NCBI RefSeq assembly: GCF_002355595.1
Contig: NZ_AP017422.1
Span: 7,010,823 to 7,074,822 of the forward strand
Direction of reading: 5' to 3'
Origin: Filimonas lacunae
GTDB lineage: Bacteria; Bacteroidota; Bacteroidia; Chitinophagales; Chitinophagaceae
Length of the DNA: 64,000 nt
Shown here: piece after piece, positions 31,168 to 64,000 of the stretch
Position numbering within the stretch: position 1 is the stretch's first letter
How the letters are laid out: every line of letters begins with the position of its first letter
Notes under the pieces: generated by a model
The model's database searches: none
Told to the model about the DNA's origin: nothing
What the model saw: the letters and a program-made list of their open reading frames with translations, nothing else
Made by a program: the position numbers and the translations under genes

Positions 31168-31199
31168 AAAAAAGCCGTTTCAGTTGAAACGGCTTTTTT
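31168..31199. terminator. Bidirectional terminator
   Basis: 15-bp perfect arms, AAAAAAGCCGTTTCA (31168-31182) and its complement (31185-31199), 2-nt spacer. A-run and T-run flank both sides, so it serves both convergent genes. Confidence 0.9.
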
Positions 31200-49685: not shown

Positions 49686-49913
49686 TTAGATAATTTCCTC
49701 TACAAAAATATGATCTGCTTCATTTAAGCGCAGGCTAAGATTATACCCTGCTACCGTAATAGAAATAGGATCGCCCAGCGGAGCCTTCTGTTCTACCCTT
49801 ATCATTTCTCCTGGTATACATCCCATCTCCATCAGTTTGATGAATATTTCATCATTCTCAAAAGACTTGATAATTACCTTTCTCCCGATGCCGATCTCTG
49901 ATAAACGTTTCAT
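49686..49913 (-). CDS. FeoA-domain protein
   Basis: 75 aa SH3-like FeoA domain: MEMGCIPGEMIRVEQKAPLG, DPISITVAGYNLSLRLNEAD. FeoA aids ferrous-iron uptake through FeoB, or the domain acts in DtxR-type regulators. Here it stands without feoB, and is followed by nadD after 13 bp, so the pair is probably one transcript. Divergent from ybeY. Confidence 0.93.
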   Translation of the reverse strand: MKRLSEIGIGRKVIIKSFENDEIFIKLMEMGCIPGEMIRVEQKAPLGDPISITVAGYNLSLRLNEADHIFVEEII

Positions 49914-49990
49914 AACGAGTAAATATGCGCAAAAGTAATGTGAGGTATCCGCAAAATGTTACGAATTTTGGAAGACAAATTGTTAATTAA

Positions 49991-50422
49991 TTGAAGAAGG
50001 TACATTTTAACTATGCCGACCGTAAGTTATCCCTTACCGGCAAAGAAAACTGCAAGCAGCACATTGAATACCTGTTTTCTAAGGAAAAGAAGAAACTGGA
50101 AGAGATCCGGTATATATTCTGCTCTGACGAATACCTGTTACAGATAAACAAGGATTTTCTACAGCACGACTATTACACCGACATTATCACTTTTGATTTA
50201 AGTGAAGGGGATGCTACCACATCTGAGGTGTACATCAGCGTAGACAGGGTAAAAGAGAATGCCATTACCCAGGGCACCACCTTTACCCGTGAAATGCTGA
50301 GGGTTTTATTTCATGGCGCCTTGCATTTGTGTGGCTACAAGGATAAAACCAAAGACCAGGTAAGTGAGATGCGCAAAAAGGAAGAACAGTACATCCTTTC
50401 CTTTGAAAAGAAGTACAAATAA
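49991..50422 (+). CDS. ybeY: Endoribonuclease YbeY
   Basis: 143 aa from TTG at 49991. Zinc-binding region FHGALHLCGYKDKTKDQVSE carries two of the three His of H3xH5xH; the third is not seen, Lys-Asp taking its place. I believe this form recurs in Bacteroidota YbeY, but cannot check. Role: 16S rRNA 3'-end maturation and ribosome quality control. LSEGDATTSEVYISVDRVKE and the short length fit. Ends in a terminator, after which the gene desert begins. Confidence 0.9.
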   Translation: MKKVHFNYADRKLSLTGKENCKQHIEYLFSKEKKKLEEIRYIFCSDEYLLQINKDFLQHDYYTDIITFDLSEGDATTSEVYISVDRVKENAITQGTTFTREMLRVLFHGALHLCGYKDKTKDQVSEMRKKEEQYILSFEKKYK

Positions 50423-50427
50423 ATAGC

Positions 50428-50456
50428 AAGGCGTTTCTGAAGAAGCGCCTTTTTCT
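50428..50456 (+). terminator. Terminator of ybeY
   Basis: AAGGCG (50428-50433) pairs with CGCCTT (50446-50451), then TTTTTC. Marks the left edge of the gene desert. Confidence 0.75.
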
Positions 50457-52623
50457 TTTATAGGTGCCGAGGAGTTATGGAAGACTGAGTTGTTTCAGTT
50501 TTAGTAATAGGGTTTCAACCTGGTTCTGCTAACCGTAAATAAACTGGATAGGTATGGCATAATACCCTGCACAGCTTTTCCTTACTTCATGCGGGCTAAT
50601 ACTATTCCATCTGGTTCATCATGTTCGATTGCATGTATACCTGAGCAGTGTTTAACTATCAGGATATACAGTATCCCCTTTTACTTGTAAGATGGATAGA
50701 GTTGCCAGATGAATTAACACAAAGCCTGGGGCAGCCTGAAAGTATTCGATGATAGTAGTTTAATAGCGAGCGTAATCACCAACATTATCACGACCTGTTA
50801 CTGGCTGCACATTTACTTCTATACACAGCTGGCTCGTATGCTTGATACTATACATTACTATCTTACCAGGGATGTTTGGGCAGTGTTGTTCAAGACAACT
50901 GCATTCAATCAACACTCGTTTGGATATACCCAGTTTACTTTCTCCCTCTTTAGATAAACATCGAATAGACCATTCCACTACCGAACAGATTCATTAAGGA
51001 AAGTCCCTAGGGTAGCCTGGAAACTATCTATAGTGTTTACTTAGTATTAGTAATTCCAATATGCCCTTGCAGGAATAGATGTAATACCTACTGTGCTGTA
51101 CACTTGGTTCCGCTAGATCTATCGCTTAGTTAGTATCTATTCCTTTCTTAAGTGGGTGTTCTATAATGTTGCTTAACTACAACTGCACTCCTTCCCTATT
51201 AGCACTTACTTACAGGAGCAAGCCACAATAATCTATATTACTCATAGGTAACTCTATACTACCTCTATCAGATACGCACCTACCAGACAACTATCCCCTA
51301 TGTTATGTAACAGCTATTCATACCATATATTACCTGTTCAAATAACTACATACACTACAGCTGTTGTTAAGCGATAGTTTCCATTATCCATTTAGATTAA
51401 TAAAGCAAGGCTATATACCAGCCATTAAGGTTGTTCAGAAGACTTACACTATTCCATCTATAGCATCCATGCTTTGCAATAGCATCTTTAGTGATAGATA
51501 CCTTACACCACACATTACAATGGAAGTTTACCAGTACCAGGTGAAATAAAGTAAATACCATACCTGATTGCTTTTATAAGTAGTACCTTGTATAAACACT
51601 TTAGCTATATACCTTTCTCCCTTTACTTGCAATTCATACATAGAAGAACTACCTATAGAGTTTATCCAGCCTTTAGTTATAATTGATCCTGGTAAGGAAT
51701 AAATAGATCTGGCATGCCTGTATCCAGGCTTTGCCAGCCTAAGCAAGTGAAACATTTTATTACTGTAGGAAATACCCAAAGCTTAGTCGGACGTAAAAGT
51801 CAATGAACACTACTGTTACTCTATAGCATCAGAACGTATAGCTTCTGATGGTACAGGTAAAAGACTGATACCACCCCGGTGGTGTATCCGTGGATATTAC
51901 ACCACCTACCTGCACACTTCCATCCATTATTAAGATAGATACCCCTAGATCTAATTGTATAACCAATCCGGATGTTCATAGTAAAAGATCATTTTATACT
52001 GATAGAATGCTAAGATTAGTAAGTGATAAACATCCCCTTGATAAGATGTACTGATAGCTATATAGATAAGCTATACATAAAACACTTGTACCAATAACAC
52101 TAGCCAGTACTTAAAAGGGTAATTAAACAAGACATACACCTGTCACTATATATCAACTGAACCTTGGTATTACACATATGACAGGGTAGACAATACATCA
52201 ACACGCATCCCTCCTCTCCTCTGATACACCAACCAAACACAACGATTAATCAAAGACTACTCTATCTAAGCGCCATCATAGCATACAGGAAGCCTGCCAT
52301 CATCCCTACATAGGCTGTTACAAAGCATTCTATTCCCCATCTAACCCAATAAGATTACAGTGGCCGAGCAATAATGGAAAAGGATACAGGTAGTTCACTT
52401 GTGCTGAAAATATCGGGTAACTTTATTTTTACTCCCAATAGTGAATTATTAATAATTATTCCCTATGGAGCTATATTACATTTCTTCTAGTTCATAGTAT
52501 AAGAACTATGTTAATTATACTGTCATCTTCATTAGTAAGCATAAACGACCTGGCATAATAGCATCAGTTTTGCCATAGGAATAGAATAACAACTATACCT
52601 ACAAGAAAACAAGGATACCTAAG

Positions 52624-52637
52624 GTTTCACGTGAAAC
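52624..52637. promoter_or_regulatory. parS site 1
   Basis: GTTTCACGTGAAAC, a perfect 14-bp palindrome and the textbook parS core. Confidence 0.85.
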
Positions 52638-52914
52638 ATAACAATGTGCCTTTGCCTTATAAACCAACCATAATGAATGATAGATAGGTACATAAGATCA
52701 ATAGTATCTAGGATAGTACAAGCATACGATCCAGCAACAATCTAGCAGTGGGCATTATTGAAGTTTCAATAATAGGGTCAGCATGCACTATAGCAATCTT
52801 ATTAATAAAGGGGAGTATTTATAAGAGAGTCTTCAGGCAAGGATTTAAATAAACAGATCATTAATCCAAACAGGAAAAGGTGTTTATGAATACTAATAAG
52901 TATTTAGAGAACAA

Positions 52915-52928
52915 GTTCCACGTGGAAC
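52915..52928. promoter_or_regulatory. parS site 2
   Basis: GTTCCACGTGGAAC, perfect palindrome. The next site lies 113 bp downstream. Confidence 0.85.
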
Positions 52929-53027
52929 CTTATACCTAAACAATAAGTTACATTATAGTTCTAAGAAGCAGTAATAACTATAAATCCACCCTAACTAATC
53001 AATCATTACTATAAGATCCAATCAATC

Positions 53028-53041
53028 GTTCCACGTGAAAC
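53028..53041. promoter_or_regulatory. parS site 3
   Basis: GTTCCACGTGAAAC: hybrid half-sites, one mismatch to a perfect palindrome. Confidence 0.8.
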
Positions 53042-53430
53042 ACAATAAACCAATAAGTACTAATATTAAACACAATACAGGAAGCAGTAAATAAACAAAT
53101 GGTTTACAATCAGCACCTAATAAGTAAACTATATACATAACCTTACCATTACCCAATCAATAAGTTTCACATAAAGCACTAGAGTTTAATAAATGCTGGT
53201 ACAAAAGACAATACAGGAAGTAGTAATAAGCATAGGTTTACAAATCAACAAGCTAATAAGCAAACTATATATAAGCTCTTCATTACCTAATCCATAAGTT
53301 CCATATAAAACATAAGAGTTCAACAAATACTCATAAAAGACAATACAGGAGGAAGTAAATAAACATAGGTTTATAAATCAACAAGCTAATAAGCAAACTA
53401 TATACATACCTTACTATCCCTAATTAATAA

Positions 53431-53444
53431 GTTCCACGTGGAAC
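53431..53444. promoter_or_regulatory. parS site 4
   Basis: GTTCCACGTGGAAC, perfect palindrome, at the end of the last 134-bp repeat unit. Confidence 0.85.
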
Positions 53445-53950
53445 ATAATAAATTAATACCACTAAAAAAATCGGAATAATAAGTACGCCCATCAGTCATA
53501 TCAGAAACCAAATAAGGAAAGTAAGTACAATACTAAGAATACCTCAAAGTAATAAAGAAGAACAAGCCCCTAAATATATTATTACACTTTAAAGAGACAC
53601 TAGGCTAAGCATAACTTAGAAGAGAAGCTATACGCCTATCCTACTAACAAACCAACACTATTACATTCTAAGAATCAACTGGATAATTCAAATCTCATAT
53701 CCCATCCACACACCTCATTTAACTTCAAGCAATATATTCTACTTACCCAACCAAAGGTTTACATTAACATACTTACTTAAAGACTTCATCTAAATATCCT
53801 ATCCTCTTATATACATCCAGCAAGCATTATCATATTAAATCATCAACACAAGCGAATAGAATAAGTATCCAGACCACTAAACATCTTTATAAATTAATAA
53901 CTCTGTTTACAGCATTCATATAATAACCTTATTAACCCAACACAGTTAAC

Positions 53951-53964
53951 GTTTCACGTGAAAC
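53951..53964. promoter_or_regulatory. parS site 5
   Basis: GTTTCACGTGAAAC, perfect palindrome. Confidence 0.85.
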
Positions 53965-54175
53965 ATACACCTAGCTAATTACAAAAGCACTTAAAGCATA
54001 GACCTAACTATTCATCTTTATAATTTAAAGTTTATAGATTATTTAAAGGAAAGAAGAAAAGATTTTTCCATTCAGTAAGGGATAGTAAAGTACACTTAGA
54101 ATAGATAGCAGTAGTTTTCAAAAAGGAAGCTTTAAAGCCAATTAATCCAAATAGAAGCAAGTATTCTTCTTAATC

Positions 54176-54201
54176 AACTGCGTTCCACGTGGAACGCAGT
54201 T
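54176..54201. promoter_or_regulatory. parS site 6, extended palindrome
   Basis: Core GTTCCACGTGGAAC (54182-54195) inside a perfect 26-bp palindrome (54176-54201, arms AACTGC/GCAGTT). Confidence 0.85.
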
Positions 54202-54316
54202 AGAAAAACAATAACTAAGATCAAAGTAACCATCAGGAGGTACAGCAGAGATAACCTTAAGAAAGGTAACAGGATCAATAAACCCTCATATAGAATTCTA
54301 ACTTCCATAATGACCT

Positions 54317-54330
54317 GTTCCACGTGAAAC
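54317..54330. promoter_or_regulatory. parS site 7
   Basis: GTTCCACGTGAAAC, one mismatch to a perfect palindrome. Confidence 0.8.
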
Positions 54331-54365
54331 ATTTACTATTTAAACTACCCTATAATAACCTATTG

Positions 54366-54379
54366 GTTCCACGTGAAAC
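54366..54379. promoter_or_regulatory. parS site 8
   Basis: GTTCCACGTGAAAC, identical to sites 3 and 7. Confidence 0.8.
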
Positions 54380-54409
54380 ATGTAATCTATCACGGTAGCT
54401 AATCTAAGG

Positions 54410-54423
54410 GTTTCACGTGGAAC
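54410..54423. promoter_or_regulatory. parS site 9, at the mnmG promoter
   Basis: GTTTCACGTGGAAC, 54 bp upstream of the mnmG -7 box, so ParB spreading could affect mnmG transcription. Confidence 0.8.
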
Positions 54424-54477
54424 CTTTGGATACGTTCTTCAAGCAACCTTTAATACATCTATAGTACTAAAGGCCTG

Positions 54478-54485
54478 TATCTTTG
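54478..54485 (+). promoter_or_regulatory. Bacteroidota-type -7 box of mnmG
   Basis: TATCTTTG matches TAnnTTTG; it ends 24 bp before the mnmG ATG. No clear -33 element at normal spacing. Confidence 0.6.
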
Positions 54486-54509
54486 CACCAGTTTAAAAGT
54501 ATATAATCA

Positions 54510-56378
54510 ATGTTTCCAGATTACGATGTTATAGTAGTAGGTGCAGGTCACGCAGGCTGTGAAGCTGCTGCTGCCGCTGCAAACATGGGTAGTAAGGTTC
54601 TTCTTATTACCATGAATATGCAGACTATTGCTCAAATGAGTTGTAACCCAGCTATGGGTGGTATTGCTAAAGGCCAGATTGTAAGAGAAATAGATGCATT
54701 AGGAGGATATAGTGGCATTGTAACTGACTTAAGTATGATCCAGTTTCGCATGCTGAACAGAAGTAAAGGTCCTGCTATGTGGAGTCCACGTACACAGAAC
54801 GATCGTATGCTGTTTGCTGCTACATGGAGAGAGAAGCTGGAACAGACTTCCAACATAGACTTTTACCAGGATATGGTACGCAATATCATCATCAAAGGAG
54901 ATAAAGCCTGTGGTGTTGTTACAGGACTGGGGCATCATATCAATTCCAAATCAGTAGTAGTTACCAGCGGAACCTTCCTTAATGGTATCATTCACATAGG
55001 TGAAAAGCAGTTTGGTGGTGGCCGCGTAGCAGAGAAAGCCGCTACAGGTATTACAGAACAACTGGTGGAACTCGGATTTGAAAGCGATCGTTTGAAAACA
55101 GGTACTCCTCCCCGTGTGGATGGACGTAGCCTGGACTATTCTAAGATGGAAGAACAAAAAGGTGATGAAGAAATCACTGGCTTCTCATACCTGGATGTTC
55201 CAAAGATCAAGCCTGAACAGCAAATAAGCTGTCATATTACCTATACCAACCAGCAGGTACACGATACATTGAAGACTGGTTTTGATAGAAGTCCTATGTT
55301 CACTGGACGTATTGAAGGTATAGGTCCACGTTACTGCCCTAGCATAGAAGATAAGATCAACCGCTTTGCAGAGAGAGACAGGCACCAGATATTCGTAGAG
55401 CCAGAAGGGTTTAACACCGTGGAGATCTATGTAAATGGTTTCTCAACTTCCCTTCCGGAAGATGTTCAGTACAATGCTATCAGGCAAATTGAAGGGTTTG
55501 AGAACGTAAGGATCTTCCGTCCGGGCTATGCTATCGAGTATGACTTCTTCCCACCTACCCAGTTAACCTATTCACTGGAAACCAAAATGATCAATAACCT
55601 GTTCTTTGCAGGTCAGATCAATGGTACTACCGGGTATGAAGAAGCAGCTTGCCAGGGTTTAATGGCAGGTATGAATGCTCATCTGAAAGCTAAAAACCTT
55701 CCTCCTTTCATACTGAAAAGAAGCGAAGCTTACATAGGAGTATTAATTGACGACCTGATAAGCAAGGGTACAGAAGAACCTTACCGCATGTTTACCAGCC
55801 GGGCAGAATATAGAACCCTGTTACGTCAGGATAACGCAGACCTACGCCTTACTGAAATGAGCCATAAGCTGGGATTAGCTAAGGATGACAGGATGGAAAA
55901 AGTAAGTAATAAAAGGGATGGAGTAGAAAGGATCAAGAAACAACTGGCAGCCTTTACTATTGAACCAGACGAAGCAAATGAATACCTGTCTTCTATTAAT
56001 TCATCACCTTTAACTGAAAAGCAGAAGGCATCTAAACTGGTTCTTCGTCCTGATATCGATCTTCCCTCTTTATTCAAAGCAATCCCCCGTTTAGCACAGG
56101 AGTTTACCAATGAGAATAAAGAAGCTATAGAGCAGGCAGAGATACAAGTGAAGTATGAACGATACATTGAAAAAGAAGAAGAACTGGTAAAAAGGATGGC
56201 ACAAATGGAGAATGCCATTATACCTGATAAGTTTGATTACGATAAAATATCAGCCTTAAGTAATGAAGCCTTACAGAAGTTTAAGAAGATAAGGCCCGCA
56301 ACCTTAGGACAAGCCAGCCGAATAAGTGGTGTTAATCCGAGTGACGTTCAAATACTAATGGTTTATATGGGGAGGTAG
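54510..56378 (+). CDS. mnmG: tRNA uridine-5-carboxymethylaminomethyl(34) synthesis enzyme MnmG (GidA)
   Basis: 622 aa. FAD-binding GAGHAGCEAA near the N-terminus, the GidA signatures CNPAMGGIAKGQIVREIDAL and GTFLNGIIHIG, and FFAGQINGTTGYEEAACQGL. The C-terminal RPATLGQASRISGVNPSDV is the MnmE-binding region. With MnmE it makes cmnm5U/nm5U34 in tRNA. Full-length. It sits directly after the parS-rich gene desert and has its own -7 box and terminator; mnmE is not in the window. Confidence 0.98.
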   Translation: MFPDYDVIVVGAGHAGCEAAAAAANMGSKVLLITMNMQTIAQMSCNPAMGGIAKGQIVREIDALGGYSGIVTDLSMIQFRMLNRSKGPAMWSPRTQNDRMLFAATWREKLEQTSNIDFYQDMVRNIIIKGDKACGVVTGLGHHINSKSVVVTSGTFLNGIIHIGEKQFGGGRVAEKAATGITEQLVELGFESDRLKTGTPPRVDGRSLDYSKMEEQKGDEEITGFSYLDVPKIKPEQQISCHITYTNQQVHDTLKTGFDRSPMFTGRIEGIGPRYCPSIEDKINRFAERDRHQIFVEPEGFNTVEIYVNGFSTSLPEDVQYNAIRQIEGFENVRIFRPGYAIEYDFFPPTQLTYSLETKMINNLFFAGQINGTTGYEEAACQGLMAGMNAHLKAKNLPPFILKRSEAYIGVLIDDLISKGTEEPYRMFTSRAEYRTLLRQDNADLRLTEMSHKLGLAKDDRMEKVSNKRDGVERIKKQLAAFTIEPDEANEYLSSINSSPLTEKQKASKLVLRPDIDLPSLFKAIPRLAQEFTNENKEAIEQAEIQVKYERYIEKEEELVKRMAQMENAIIPDKFDYDKISALSNEALQKFKKIRPATLGQASRISGVNPSDVQILMVYMGR

Positions 56379-60612: not shown

Positions 60613-62214
60613 ATGAATAAAGTAATTATCATATTGCTAATTACTTTACAAGGTTTGTGTGTACAAGCACAAACCTCAGATATATACATCCCTGCCAACA
60701 GCACCGTAGGCTTTTTCACCACTGACACCACCGCCATTTTTGGAAACATCAAAATTGACGGAACCATTATTCTCCCAACCAGAAGCTTTGTGTATTTCAT
60801 GGGGGAAACCTGGAGAAATGCTACAGCCAACAATATCATCGACGAATCCTTAAATGGAGCCAGTGCTATTGGAGGTACTGTTCGGTTTACACAAATAAGC
60901 AGGCCTGGAACAATTCCCATACAACAGAAAATATTCGGGTCTTATACAGCAGCTAGCCAAACCGGAACCTATTTCCCAAACTTCCAACTGGATAATGCAT
61001 CCGGTTTAATGGTAAACGATAGCAGTGACATAGCCATCCGCAATAATCTGCATTTTATTAATGGAAAGATTATTATCAGCCGTGCTAACGTAGTAATCGG
61101 TTCTCCCTCCCGCAGGGGAAGTATTACCGGCTTCAACGAAAACAATTACATAGTAACAGGTGGTAGTTTGTTTGGTGGATTTTTATACAGGCTGAGAATA
61201 TTACCCGATGAATCGGACAGTACTGTTTTCCCCATCGGTACTTCTGCCAACTCCTATACTCCTTTTTCTATGATCAACCATGGAGAAGCGGATGATTTTA
61301 GAGCAAGGGTGTTCAGCAGAGTCTTAGAGCATGGATTATTCGGAATTAACATCAGTGACCAGAGTACCAACAAAACATGGATAGTTGCCAACACCAAACC
61401 CATTTTTAACGCAAGCATCCGTTTTCAACATATTATCGAGGATGAGGGTACCGCTTTCAGTGCAGGAAGAAAATACAGTTATGTGAGTCACCTTAATTCT
61501 GCCGGTTGGGATACTACGGGTGTGTTCTCTACACCTAAGTCACCAGGTACTATTACCACCGGGCAAAAACTCAATAACTCAGCTACGCTTACCCGAACAT
61601 TCCGTTTGTCGCAGCCAGAGAGTTTTTTGTTTGCCGAGTTCGTTAGATCCTATGGTGTGGATAACCCTGTGAATACCTTCAATTTTACAGCGAAACGTAT
61701 CAGTCCTATCCTGGCGCTCCTGAACATTACTGTGAATAACGACAATAATGTGATGTACTACGAAATTCAGAAACGCAGGCTAAATGTTACCAACTGGGAA
61801 GCCGTGGATACCCTGATGCCTGCTAACATAAATGGCAACCATACCTATTCCTGGTATGACAATGATGTGTATTATACCGACATTATTCAATATCGCATCC
61901 GCATTATTGCACCGGATGGTACTTACACCTATTCTGTTATCCGCAATATCGATGGCATTGCACCTGACTTCTTTGTGCAGGTATTCCCCAACCCTGGTTA
62001 CGACCAGTTCTATTTACGTTTAGTAAACGCACCGGATGTGGAAAACATGGTAGTTTATGACAACTATGGCCAGTTCCTGTTCTCCAAAGTAATCACCAAT
62101 TCCTTAACGCCATTTAACCTGGGCACTTATCCACAGGGTAACTACTACGTTGTGCTATATGGAAAAGGCAAAAGAAAGATCATGACCGAAAAAGTGATCA
62201 AATTGAACAGATAG
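60613..62214 (+). CDS. T9SS-secreted surface protein with C-terminal sorting domain
   Basis: 533 aa. Signal peptide (KVIIILLITLQGLCVQAQ), a beta-rich body, and a C-terminal T9SS type A sorting domain: VQVFPNPGYDQFYLRLVNAP, MVVYDNYGQFLFSKV, NLGTYPQGNYYVVLYGKGK. Type IX secretion exports it across the outer membrane and the CTD is cut or anchored. It starts 4 bp after the repeat protein, so the two are co-translated in one operon; the pair likely forms a surface assembly. Confidence 0.9.
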   Translation: MNKVIIILLITLQGLCVQAQTSDIYIPANSTVGFFTTDTTAIFGNIKIDGTIILPTRSFVYFMGETWRNATANNIIDESLNGASAIGGTVRFTQISRPGTIPIQQKIFGSYTAASQTGTYFPNFQLDNASGLMVNDSSDIAIRNNLHFINGKIIISRANVVIGSPSRRGSITGFNENNYIVTGGSLFGGFLYRLRILPDESDSTVFPIGTSANSYTPFSMINHGEADDFRARVFSRVLEHGLFGINISDQSTNKTWIVANTKPIFNASIRFQHIIEDEGTAFSAGRKYSYVSHLNSAGWDTTGVFSTPKSPGTITTGQKLNNSATLTRTFRLSQPESFLFAEFVRSYGVDNPVNTFNFTAKRISPILALLNITVNNDNNVMYYEIQKRRLNVTNWEAVDTLMPANINGNHTYSWYDNDVYYTDIIQYRIRIIAPDGTYTYSVIRNIDGIAPDFFVQVFPNPGYDQFYLRLVNAPDVENMVVYDNYGQFLFSKVITNSLTPFNLGTYPQGNYYVVLYGKGKRKIMTEKVIKLNR

Positions 62215-62296
62215 CACAAAATAGCGTTAAAAACCCTGTAGGCTTTCTGATCATAGCAAGCTTAATAGTATTATTACAGTTTACAAGCATAGCGCA

Positions 62297-63133
62297 TTGA
62301 GACCAAATCATTACTTCAAGCTGGCAGTTATTCACATACTGTTTACCCTCCCTTTATTTGCAGGTGCGCAACAGAAATGGGACATTCAGGGTACAGTGTT
62401 CGATTTCTTCAACAAGCAACGTGTAGAAGCAGTAAGCGTGTTTTCTAAATCGGGCAGTGTTGCCATTACCGATAGCCTGGGACGTTATTCTATCCCTGTA
62501 CGGTCAGGTGACTCTATCTGGTTCTCTTATCTGAACAAGAACACGATGAAGTTTTCTGTGGATACCATTGTGAATATCTCGTCATTTGACATTGGTTTGC
62601 ACATCGATGCCCGCTACTTACCGGAAGTAAGGGTGAGAAACAAGAACTACAAAGAGGATTCTGTGCAAAACCGGAAGGACTATGCTAAAATCTTCAACTT
62701 TAAAAAGCCGGGTATTGCCCTCAGCTCCAACCCTCCTTCTACTTATACACCGGGTAGCCTTACTGTGGGACTGGATCTGGACGAGTTTATTAACATGTTC
62801 CGTTTCAGAAGGAACAAAAGAATAGAAGCTTTACAGAAGAGATTACTCGAAGAAGAACAGGATAAGTACATTACCCACCGCTTTACGAAGCGTTTTGTAA
62901 GACAACTCACCGGGCTGGACAGTACCAACCTCGATGAGTTTATCAACTATTTCAAACCTGATTACGATATTCTGCTTACCATGAACGACATGGAGCTGGG
63001 CTATTACATCCAGCTATGCTATCAGCAATACGTGGAACTGAAAAAACAGGGCTTACCCTTGTACAACAGGAGACTGATGAACAAATTCCGTAAGCCGGAC
63101 GGTAAGGAGCTGGATATTATCCTACCCTATTAA
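62297..63133 (+). CDS. Exported protein with carboxypeptidase-regulatory-like domain
   Basis: 278 aa from TTG at 62297, signal peptide ([16 protein letters not shown]). Residues ~25-105 are a CarboxypepD_reg-like beta sandwich ([40 protein letters not shown]). The helical C-terminal half ([37 protein letters not shown]) is a conserved Bacteroidota tail of unknown role. Last of the plus-strand exported set; its 3' end overlaps the nadA stop by 12 bp. Confidence 0.82.
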
Positions 63134-64000
63134 GCCAGCTGCCCTGCTGATGTCCAGCATCCTTTCGATCGGGCGAAGGGATGCCAGTCGTAATTTTTCG
63201 TCCATGTGAATTTCCGGCGTTTCGTATTCCATGCACAGGTATAACTTTTCCAGCGTGTTCAATTTCATGTGTGGACAATCGTTGCATGCACATGAATTAT
63301 TCGGTGGTGCAGGAATCAACGTTTTTGTGGGTGCATCCTGTTGCATCTGGTGCAAAATTCCCGTTTCGGTGGCCACGATGTATTCCTGTGCATCATCCTT
63401 CACCACAAACTTCAATAACTGGGTGGTACTGCCTATAAAATCCGAAATTCTCAGAATTGCTTCTTCACACTCCGGGTGAGCCACCAGCTTTGCCTTCGGA
63501 TTGCGCATTTTAAGCTTCATTATCTTCTCCAAACTGAAAATCTCATGAACCATACACGCGCCGTTCCAAAGGACCATATTGCGCCCCGTTTTCCTGTTTA
63601 GGTATCCGCCCAGATTTTTGTCCGGTGCAAAAATGATCGGCTGATCTTCCGGAATGCTCTCAATTATCTTTTCTGCGTTGCCACTTGTGCAGATGATATC
63701 GCTTAAAGCCTTGATTTCAGCACTGCAATTGATGTAAGAAACCACCAGGTGATCGGGATACTTCTCTTTGAACCGTCTGAACAACTCTGCAGGGGCACTG
63801 TCGGCCAGTGAACAACCTGCTTTAAGATCTGGCAGCAACACCTTTTTATTCGGATTTAAAATTTTCGCTGTTTCCGCCATAAAATGCACACCGGCGAAAA
63901 CAATGATGTCCGCATCTGTTTTGGCAGCCTGTTGTGCTAACCCTAAACTATCCCCAATGTAATCCGCCACATCCTGGATATCCGGCTCCTGATAATAGTG
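63122..64000 (-). CDS. nadA: Quinolinate synthase NadA, 5' end outside window
   Basis: The frame is open to the window edge: reading inward it begins [20 protein letters not shown], so the GTG at 63970 is internal. Fe-S and substrate motifs: [62 protein letters not shown] and the terminal [16 protein letters not shown]. It condenses iminoaspartate with DHAP to quinolinate using a [4Fe-4S] cluster. About 293 residues are in the window; the N-terminal part is missing. Confidence 0.97.

Follow-up and report, generated by a model that had tools for sequence, protein, structure and literature searches.

A nine-site parS cluster in gene-free DNA upstream of mnmG, a very probable chromosomal centromere in Filimonas lacunae

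The chromosome of Filimonas lacunae possesses a 4,087-bp gene-free spacer between ybeY and mnmG, which contains every exact parS site of the genome. The spacer (50423..54509) is located in the window analyzed here, a stretch of 64,000 nucleotides (G000:C1:7,010,823-7,074,822), and plain positions in the text are counted from its first letter. Taken as a whole, the spacer is very probably a chromosomal parS centromere (parS cluster), because its sites are unique in the genome, clustered, and located at the GC-skew switch, and because the genome encodes a single HTH_ParB protein accompanied by ParA. A putative centromere had been proposed at this locus from the sequence alone, and the same evidence supports that proposal.

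The parS sites, their presumed ParB, and the predicted origin

Nine exact matches to GTTYCACGTGRAAC, which we take to be the chromosomal parS consensus, are present at 52624-54423 in the right half of the spacer, spanning 1,800 bp (7.063-7.065 Mb of the chromosome). Five of the nine are perfect palindromes, namely parS 1 (52624..52637) and parS 5 (53951..53964), which read GTTTCACGTGAAAC, and parS 2 (52915..52928), parS 4 (53431..53444), and parS 6 (54182..54195), which read GTTCCACGTGGAAC. The sequence GTTCCACGTGAAAC is shared by parS 3 (53028..53041), parS 7 (54317..54330), and parS 8 (54366..54379), and parS 9 (54410..54423) reads GTTTCACGTGGAAC. The single-contig genome (7,814,405 bp) contains no exact copy besides these nine. 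One-mismatch matches occur at two further places genome-wide, and the backwards-pattern control gave four matches at no more than one mismatch. The only other match in the window at up to two mismatches is found at 31177 (two mismatches); at this threshold, shuffled versions of the 64 kb contained 0.53 matches on average, with a maximum of 3 in 100 shuffles.

The spacer extends from the ybeY stop at 50422 to the mnmG start at 54510, and its longest open reading frame (ORF) has 83 aa. None of its three ORFs longer than 60 aa had a Pfam match at E <= 0.01, ARAGORN detected no tRNA, and the Rfam scan returned a single match (E 0.28) below the gathering threshold, and thus no known RNA. The GC content is 0.346 (0.374 in the left part and 0.315 in the right part), compared with 0.438 in a 1.6-Mb genome sample, and of all 2-kb stretches in the window, the one richest in A/T falls inside the spacer. 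The genome count, the ORF scan, and the GC content thus confirm the claim of the sequence-only reading that nine sites, five of them perfect palindromes, are packed into 1.8 kb of gene-free, A/T-rich DNA upstream of mnmG.

The sole HTH_ParB match of the genome is located at 5.256 Mb, 1.8 Mb from the parS sites, in an ORF with ParB_N, HTH_ParB, and ParB_C domains, directly downstream of a 266-aa ParA-type ORF. As the single HTH_ParB protein, it is presumably the cognate ParB of the nine sites. The absence of parAB beside the sites had been regarded as unusual, but it turned out to be ordinary: among 37 ParB-bearing genomes of the relatives draw, parB and mnmG share a contig in six, always at least 0.7 Mb apart, and lie on different contigs in the other 31. 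ScpA, the condensin subunit to which the search was limited, is encoded at 6.234 Mb, which makes condensin loading at parS possible. It was also found in 52 of the 60 genomes of a phylum-wide draw (40 genera, some of them repeated, own genome included), and the eight genomes without an ScpA match all came from the draw's 'same class' group. These eight (G049, G057, G061, G065, G075, G079, G087, and G091) have kept parS at mnmG.

GC skew was measured in 80 evenly spaced 20-kb samples. Its sign changes from negative to positive in the interval bounded by the samples at 6.935 and 7.033 Mb, and the reverse change falls within 3.126-3.223 Mb. The parS position plus half the genome gives about 3.157 Mb, which matches the opposite skew turn. 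Over the 344 kb surrounding the locus, raw cumulative skew is lowest at 7,075,444, in a zone that is flat between roughly 7.03 and 7.085 Mb, and the skew at 4-fold degenerate sites, centered by gene strand, has its minimum at 7,075,027. Both minima are situated at, or at the edge of, the divergent intergenic region between nadA and ppiD, about 10 kb to the right of parS. A motif equally dense elsewhere, or a skew minimum far away, had been named as evidence that would tell against a centromere/origin here. Neither was observed; the genome holds nine exact copies only, all in the spacer, and the minimum is about 10 kb off.

The origin of replication (oriC) is predicted from the skew minima, synteny, and box density to be the nadA–ppiD intergenic region (G000:C1:7,074,958-7,075,455), just outside the window, about 10 kb downstream of the spacer and 9.7 kb from the last parS site. 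A supercluster of DnaA boxes (TTWTNCACA) extends from 7,072,478 to 7,084,022 and reaches 14 boxes in 6 kb, versus a maximum of 5 in 746 background windows. Its first part lies at 61656..62670, and it runs on past the window to a window-equivalent position of about 73200. The gene nadA (63122..64000, minus strand, start read by eye), which encodes quinolinate synthase (PF02445), also extends past the window end. Several TTATCCCCA- and TATCCACA-like elements were noticed by eye in the nadA–ppiD region of this genome.

This arrangement is shared by relatives, as nadA and ppiD are adjacent and divergent in 41 of 41 distinct loci in which both genes were found (own genome included). Across these loci, the interval between the two genes, which includes about 55 codons from the start of nadA, as the query was truncated at the window end, totals 34.3 kb and contains 105 boxes, a density of 3.06 per kb versus 0.22 elsewhere; the reversed-box control gave 0.32 and 0.09 per kb, respectively. 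GC skew rises across nadA–ppiD in 28 of the 33 usable loci. Among the matches listed (40 of 57), nadA is found on either side of mnmG in relatives, about 2-13 kb away. The contig begins at dnaA (C1:409), 0.75 Mb from the GC-skew turn, and dnaA was rejected as an origin marker owing to this distance. A dnaN-like ORF, recognized by eye from the sequence, is located at G000:C1:7,092,308-7,093,423 (L107:17486-18601), about 17 kb from the predicted oriC and far from dnaA.

In ParABS systems, ParB loads at parS and spreads, and ParA drives segregation of the origin region. Nucleation of ParB at parS and its CTP-dependent sliding are described in the parts of the ParABS literature consulted. The sites, their uniqueness and position, the unlinked parAB, the presence of ScpA, the skew, and the conservation are direct observations, whereas ParB binding, clamp sliding, and segregation at the nine sites are inferred from this known biology. 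ParB, whose gene is 1.8 Mb distant, would be loaded at the sites as CTP-dependent clamps, which would slide over the flanking gene-free DNA and form a partition complex. Through movement of this complex by ParA, the origin region at nadA–ppiD, some 10 kb off, would be segregated first once it has been copied. Condensin may also be loaded at the parS block, and the parS sites would be kept while the DNA between them drifts.

Conservation at mnmG and turnover of the spacer

The closest named MnmG relatives of this genome belong to Chitinophagaceae. At the order level, exact parS was detected in 33 of 39 genomes (own included), and it is beside or inside mnmG in 31 of these 33, the exceptions being G024 and G036. 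At the phylum level, 57 of 60 genomes carry exact parS, and in all of these but G036, G050, and G069 (54 of the 57) at least one site is no more than 2 kb from mnmG. The sites are present on both sides of the gene in 23 of these 54 genomes, on the 5' side only in 14, and on the 3' side only in 17; in the two-sided cases they are mostly within 20 bp of the mnmG ends. A survey of 119 mnmG loci (the window, 38 relatives, and 80 named records, with several pairs from the same genome) found exact parS within -5 to +2.5 kb of mnmG in 86. The position of parS beside mnmG therefore looks ancestral in Bacteroidota. In four loci (L151, L157, L161, and L164), an exact parS is located inside the mnmG coding sequence at +381 from the start, and the same offset is found in G053.

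The ybeY–mnmG gap of this genome is the longest of 101 measurable gaps (4,091 bp by that measure). The gap of Longitalea arenae (L200) measures 4,088 bp and has two parS sites, gaps of 1.7 and 2.8 kb in two congeners hold 9 and 7 sites, respectively, and Terrimonas ferruginea has nine sites in 1.0 kb. Within the genus, the gap gave a blastn match (E 1e-5) with G002 only, over 55 bp before mnmG, and none with G001. The spacer DNA is thus unalignable within the genus, yet the congeners keep 7 and 9 sites, indicating that the sites are retained as the DNA around them changes.

A tandem array within the spacer (53068..53448, plus strand) consists of 2.8 copies of a 133-bp unit. Four positions are in register with it, namely 53028, just left of the array, 53164, 53298, and 53431. 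The outer two are intact, with parS 3 at the left end of the repeated register and parS 4 at the right end of the array. The inner two are decayed parS copies with three mismatches each, GTTTCACATAAAGC (53164..53177) and GTTCCATATAAAAC (53298..53311), so the number of parS sites can rise and fall by this route. It is proposed that site number and spacer length result from local expansion through tandem duplication and turnover.

In many relatives (L217, L245, L187, L193, L203, and L233 among them), ORFs of about 205-245 aa fill the ybeY–mnmG gap. Some of them encode a CAP-domain protein (PF00188; tested in L187), and others carry an FDHIVP motif, are unrelated to the CAP-domain type, and presumably resemble HNH nucleases. 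The ORF of L245, one of the FDHIVP type, had no Pfam match.

Opposing observations, alternative explanations, and promoter elements

Several observations weigh against the centromere reading or the oriC placement. Many relatives get by with one or two parS sites in 60-140 bp, and neither nine sites nor 4 kb is therefore necessary. One genome (G024) has parS sites but none near mnmG, and three (G036, G050, and G069) carry parS and mnmG on different contigs. The raw skew is flat over about 55 kb around the locus, with its minimum 10 kb off. As for the predicted oriC, two of the 41 nadA–ppiD intervals (L224 and L258) lack any box, and the interval of this genome contains only two strict boxes. 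Finally, 33 loci lack an exact site near mnmG, and the whole genomes of 14 family members chosen among them contain no exact parS at all (L184, L187, L188, L195, L196, L203, L217, L229, L231, L235, L239, L245, L248, and L249).

One-mismatch parS matches in these 14 genomes total six, two of which are at mnmG in the genome of L196, and the reversed control was higher. ParB is present in 13 of the 14, and its recognition helix is almost unchanged, except in the genome of L188. These relatives possibly have an altered centromere, with incomplete assemblies as the alternative. Long interrupted inverted repeats built on the parS half-site were observed at the ybeY end of the gap in L217, L229, L235, L248, and L195.

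The spacer might be oriC itself with parS inside, as it is gene-free and A/T-rich, lies within the flat skew zone, and adjoins mnmG/gidA, listed among the 'origin genes' in the portion of PMC2099444 consulted. However, no TTATCCACA-like box at up to one mismatch was found at 49900-55000, and the box supercluster and both skew minima are about 10 kb to its right. The nadA–ppiD interval is box-rich across the family, and the GC skew of the spacer is still negative, like that of the left replichore. With these features against it, the spacer is very unlikely to be oriC, and the earlier suggestion of an origin here stands in its neighborhood, to about 10 kb, but not for the spacer itself. A gene-free and compositionally distinct stretch with iterated sites also resembles a plasmid centromere. 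Nevertheless, the probability that the spacer is a partition locus belonging to an integrated plasmid or mobile element is negligible, and conserved synteny and the same position phylum-wide contradict this explanation. The consensus of the sites is that of chromosomal parS, the sole ParB has the three domains given above, the spacer codes for nothing recognizable, and the six neighboring ORFs searched are ybeY, mnmG, nadD, a FeoA-like ORF, a chromate-type transporter gene, and recQ. The spacer is therefore still best read as the chromosomal parS centromere, and two further accounts of its length and site number are compatible with that reading.

According to one of them, the spacer is mostly neutral debris, made of decayed genes or insertions and tandem duplications, in which parS multiplied without benefit from its number. 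This account is plausible, though short of probable. The two decayed parS copies of the 133-bp array and the lack of conserved spacer DNA within the genus favor it, as does the spacer of L200, which is of similar size with only two sites. In P. aeruginosa, moreover, the title of PMC4368675 states that a single one of the four parS nearest oriC is sufficient. On the other hand, nine intact sites amid unalignable DNA, with 7 and 9 in the congeners, suggest selection for several sites, and promoter elements look purged from the spacer. The Pfam search for decayed genes, which covered the three spacer ORFs longer than 60 aa, found no match.

The other account, which we consider unlikely, proposes that the spacer is selected as a transcription-free track for ParB loading and sliding, with promoters purged and transcription from ybeY terminated, so that clamps loaded at the nine sites would not be displaced. 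The motif TAnnTTTG, which we take to be the Bacteroidota -7 promoter element, occurs once in the spacer (54478..54485, plus strand, TATCTTTG), where it is likely the mnmG promoter; similar TA(C/T)CTTTG elements are found upstream of mnmG in several of the 14 relatives listed. With the last 60 bp before mnmG excluded, in a test chosen post hoc, the three congeneric spacers contain no TAnnTTTG, versus 11.2, 8.5, and 7.3 expected (Markov order 1-3), and it is the only motif with zero occurrences among 30 permuted motifs. In this genome, the ratios for the motif are 1.7 in divergent intergenic DNA, 0.64 in coding DNA, 0.72-0.83 in tandem intergenic DNA, and 0.82-0.89 in convergent intergenic DNA. 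Non-promoter DNA is thus itself depleted, and the coding ratio lowers the spacer expectation to about 5.5 at order 2, making the absence suggestive rather than decisive.

Over all 26 gaps scanned, 25 TAnnTTTG were seen versus 43.6 expected. Other-genus gaps with exact parS (16 past the filter) had 16 versus about 26 expected, while those without it (7 past the filter) had 9 versus about 6; some gaps past the filter still contain most of an ORF. The gap of L222 goes in the opposite direction, with 6 versus 2.9 expected, and in many relatives the spacer is short or the gap contains a gene, which argues against the proposed track. A sigma70-type promoter scan, whose consensus is not the Bacteroidota one, gave 9 hits versus 19.3 expected in shuffles. 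An intrinsic-terminator-like hairpin and T-run (AAGGCGTTTCTGAAGAAGCGCCTT + TTTCTTTT; 50428..50451, plus strand) lies 3' of ybeY, and it is in this genome that such shielding was seen. A genus-level ParB platform, in which a promoter-purged spacer of 1.7-4.1 kb with 7-9 parS sites is selected for transcription-free ParB sliding, is a doubtful extension of the centromere reading. If true, the size of the partition complex would be adjusted through the length of the spacer and the number of its sites.

The spacer is bordered upstream by ybeY (49991..50422, plus strand; rRNA maturation RNase, TIGR00043, E 1.7e-26) and downstream by mnmG, also named gidA (54510..56378, plus strand; TIGR00136, E 1.7e-259), which is the parS neighbor in most genomes of the phylum draw. 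An ORF-free stretch of similar length, 4.3 kb without an ORF of at least 100 aa or rRNA landmark motifs (L025:13320-17653, GC 0.46), also occurs in the 1.6-Mb sample, so spacer length alone is not unique. The plus strand of the spacer is rich in A and C at 51000-54250, with GC skew to -0.45 and AT skew to +0.31. A generic bias of left-replichore noncoding DNA was ruled out as its source, since left noncoding DNA has a GC skew of -0.002 versus -0.167 in the spacer.

Significance and comparison with known systems

In kind the locus looks ordinary, as a chromosomal parS centromere; its array is unusually large and clean, and its place seems fixed phylum-wide. The results suggest a simple rule, in which the centromere is beside mnmG in Bacteroidota and oriC is at nadA–ppiD, not at dnaA, in Chitinophagaceae. 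Such a rule would correct the placement of the origin wherever a genome record begins at dnaA, as the present one does. Neither the mnmG–parS part nor the nadA–ppiD part was found stated in the portions of the literature searched, and an earlier description is possible. The natural variants, from 1 to 9 sites and from 60-bp to 4-kb spacers, could be used to test the number of sites and the amount of quiet DNA on which a centromere depends. A further variant is the group in which exact parS is missing and the ParB helix is largely conserved.

The chromosomal ParABS centromeres of B. subtilis, P. aeruginosa, and C. crescentus have the same consensus palindrome, clustered sites near the origin, and one ParB with ParA. 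In the model layout, the sites are spread around an oriC-gidA-parAB cluster. Here, in contrast, parAB and dnaA are 1.8 Mb and 0.75 Mb from the sites, respectively, and all sites are in one gene-free 1.8-kb block beside mnmG.

Further parallels come from Bacteroidota and gut bacteria. In the portion of PMC10197239 consulted, which does not mention mnmG, most parS sites were clustered in all 12 gut species, and the clusters were used together with GC skew to place the origin. Origins with parS clusters were supported by Hi-C in gut bacteria, including two Bacteroidetes, and were not systematically at dnaA, which is in line with the locus described here. The same source did not find any known condensin in the two Bacteroidetes that it covers; ScpA, in contrast, is encoded here and in most genomes of the phylum draw. 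According to the part of PMC8994065 seen, which is silent on parS and mnmG linkage, the oriC of Elizabethkingia meningoseptica was predicted from DnaA boxes about 1.9 Mb from dnaA, and it is likewise a Bacteroidota oriC located away from dnaA. The position of oriC at nadA–ppiD is found here for Chitinophagaceae.

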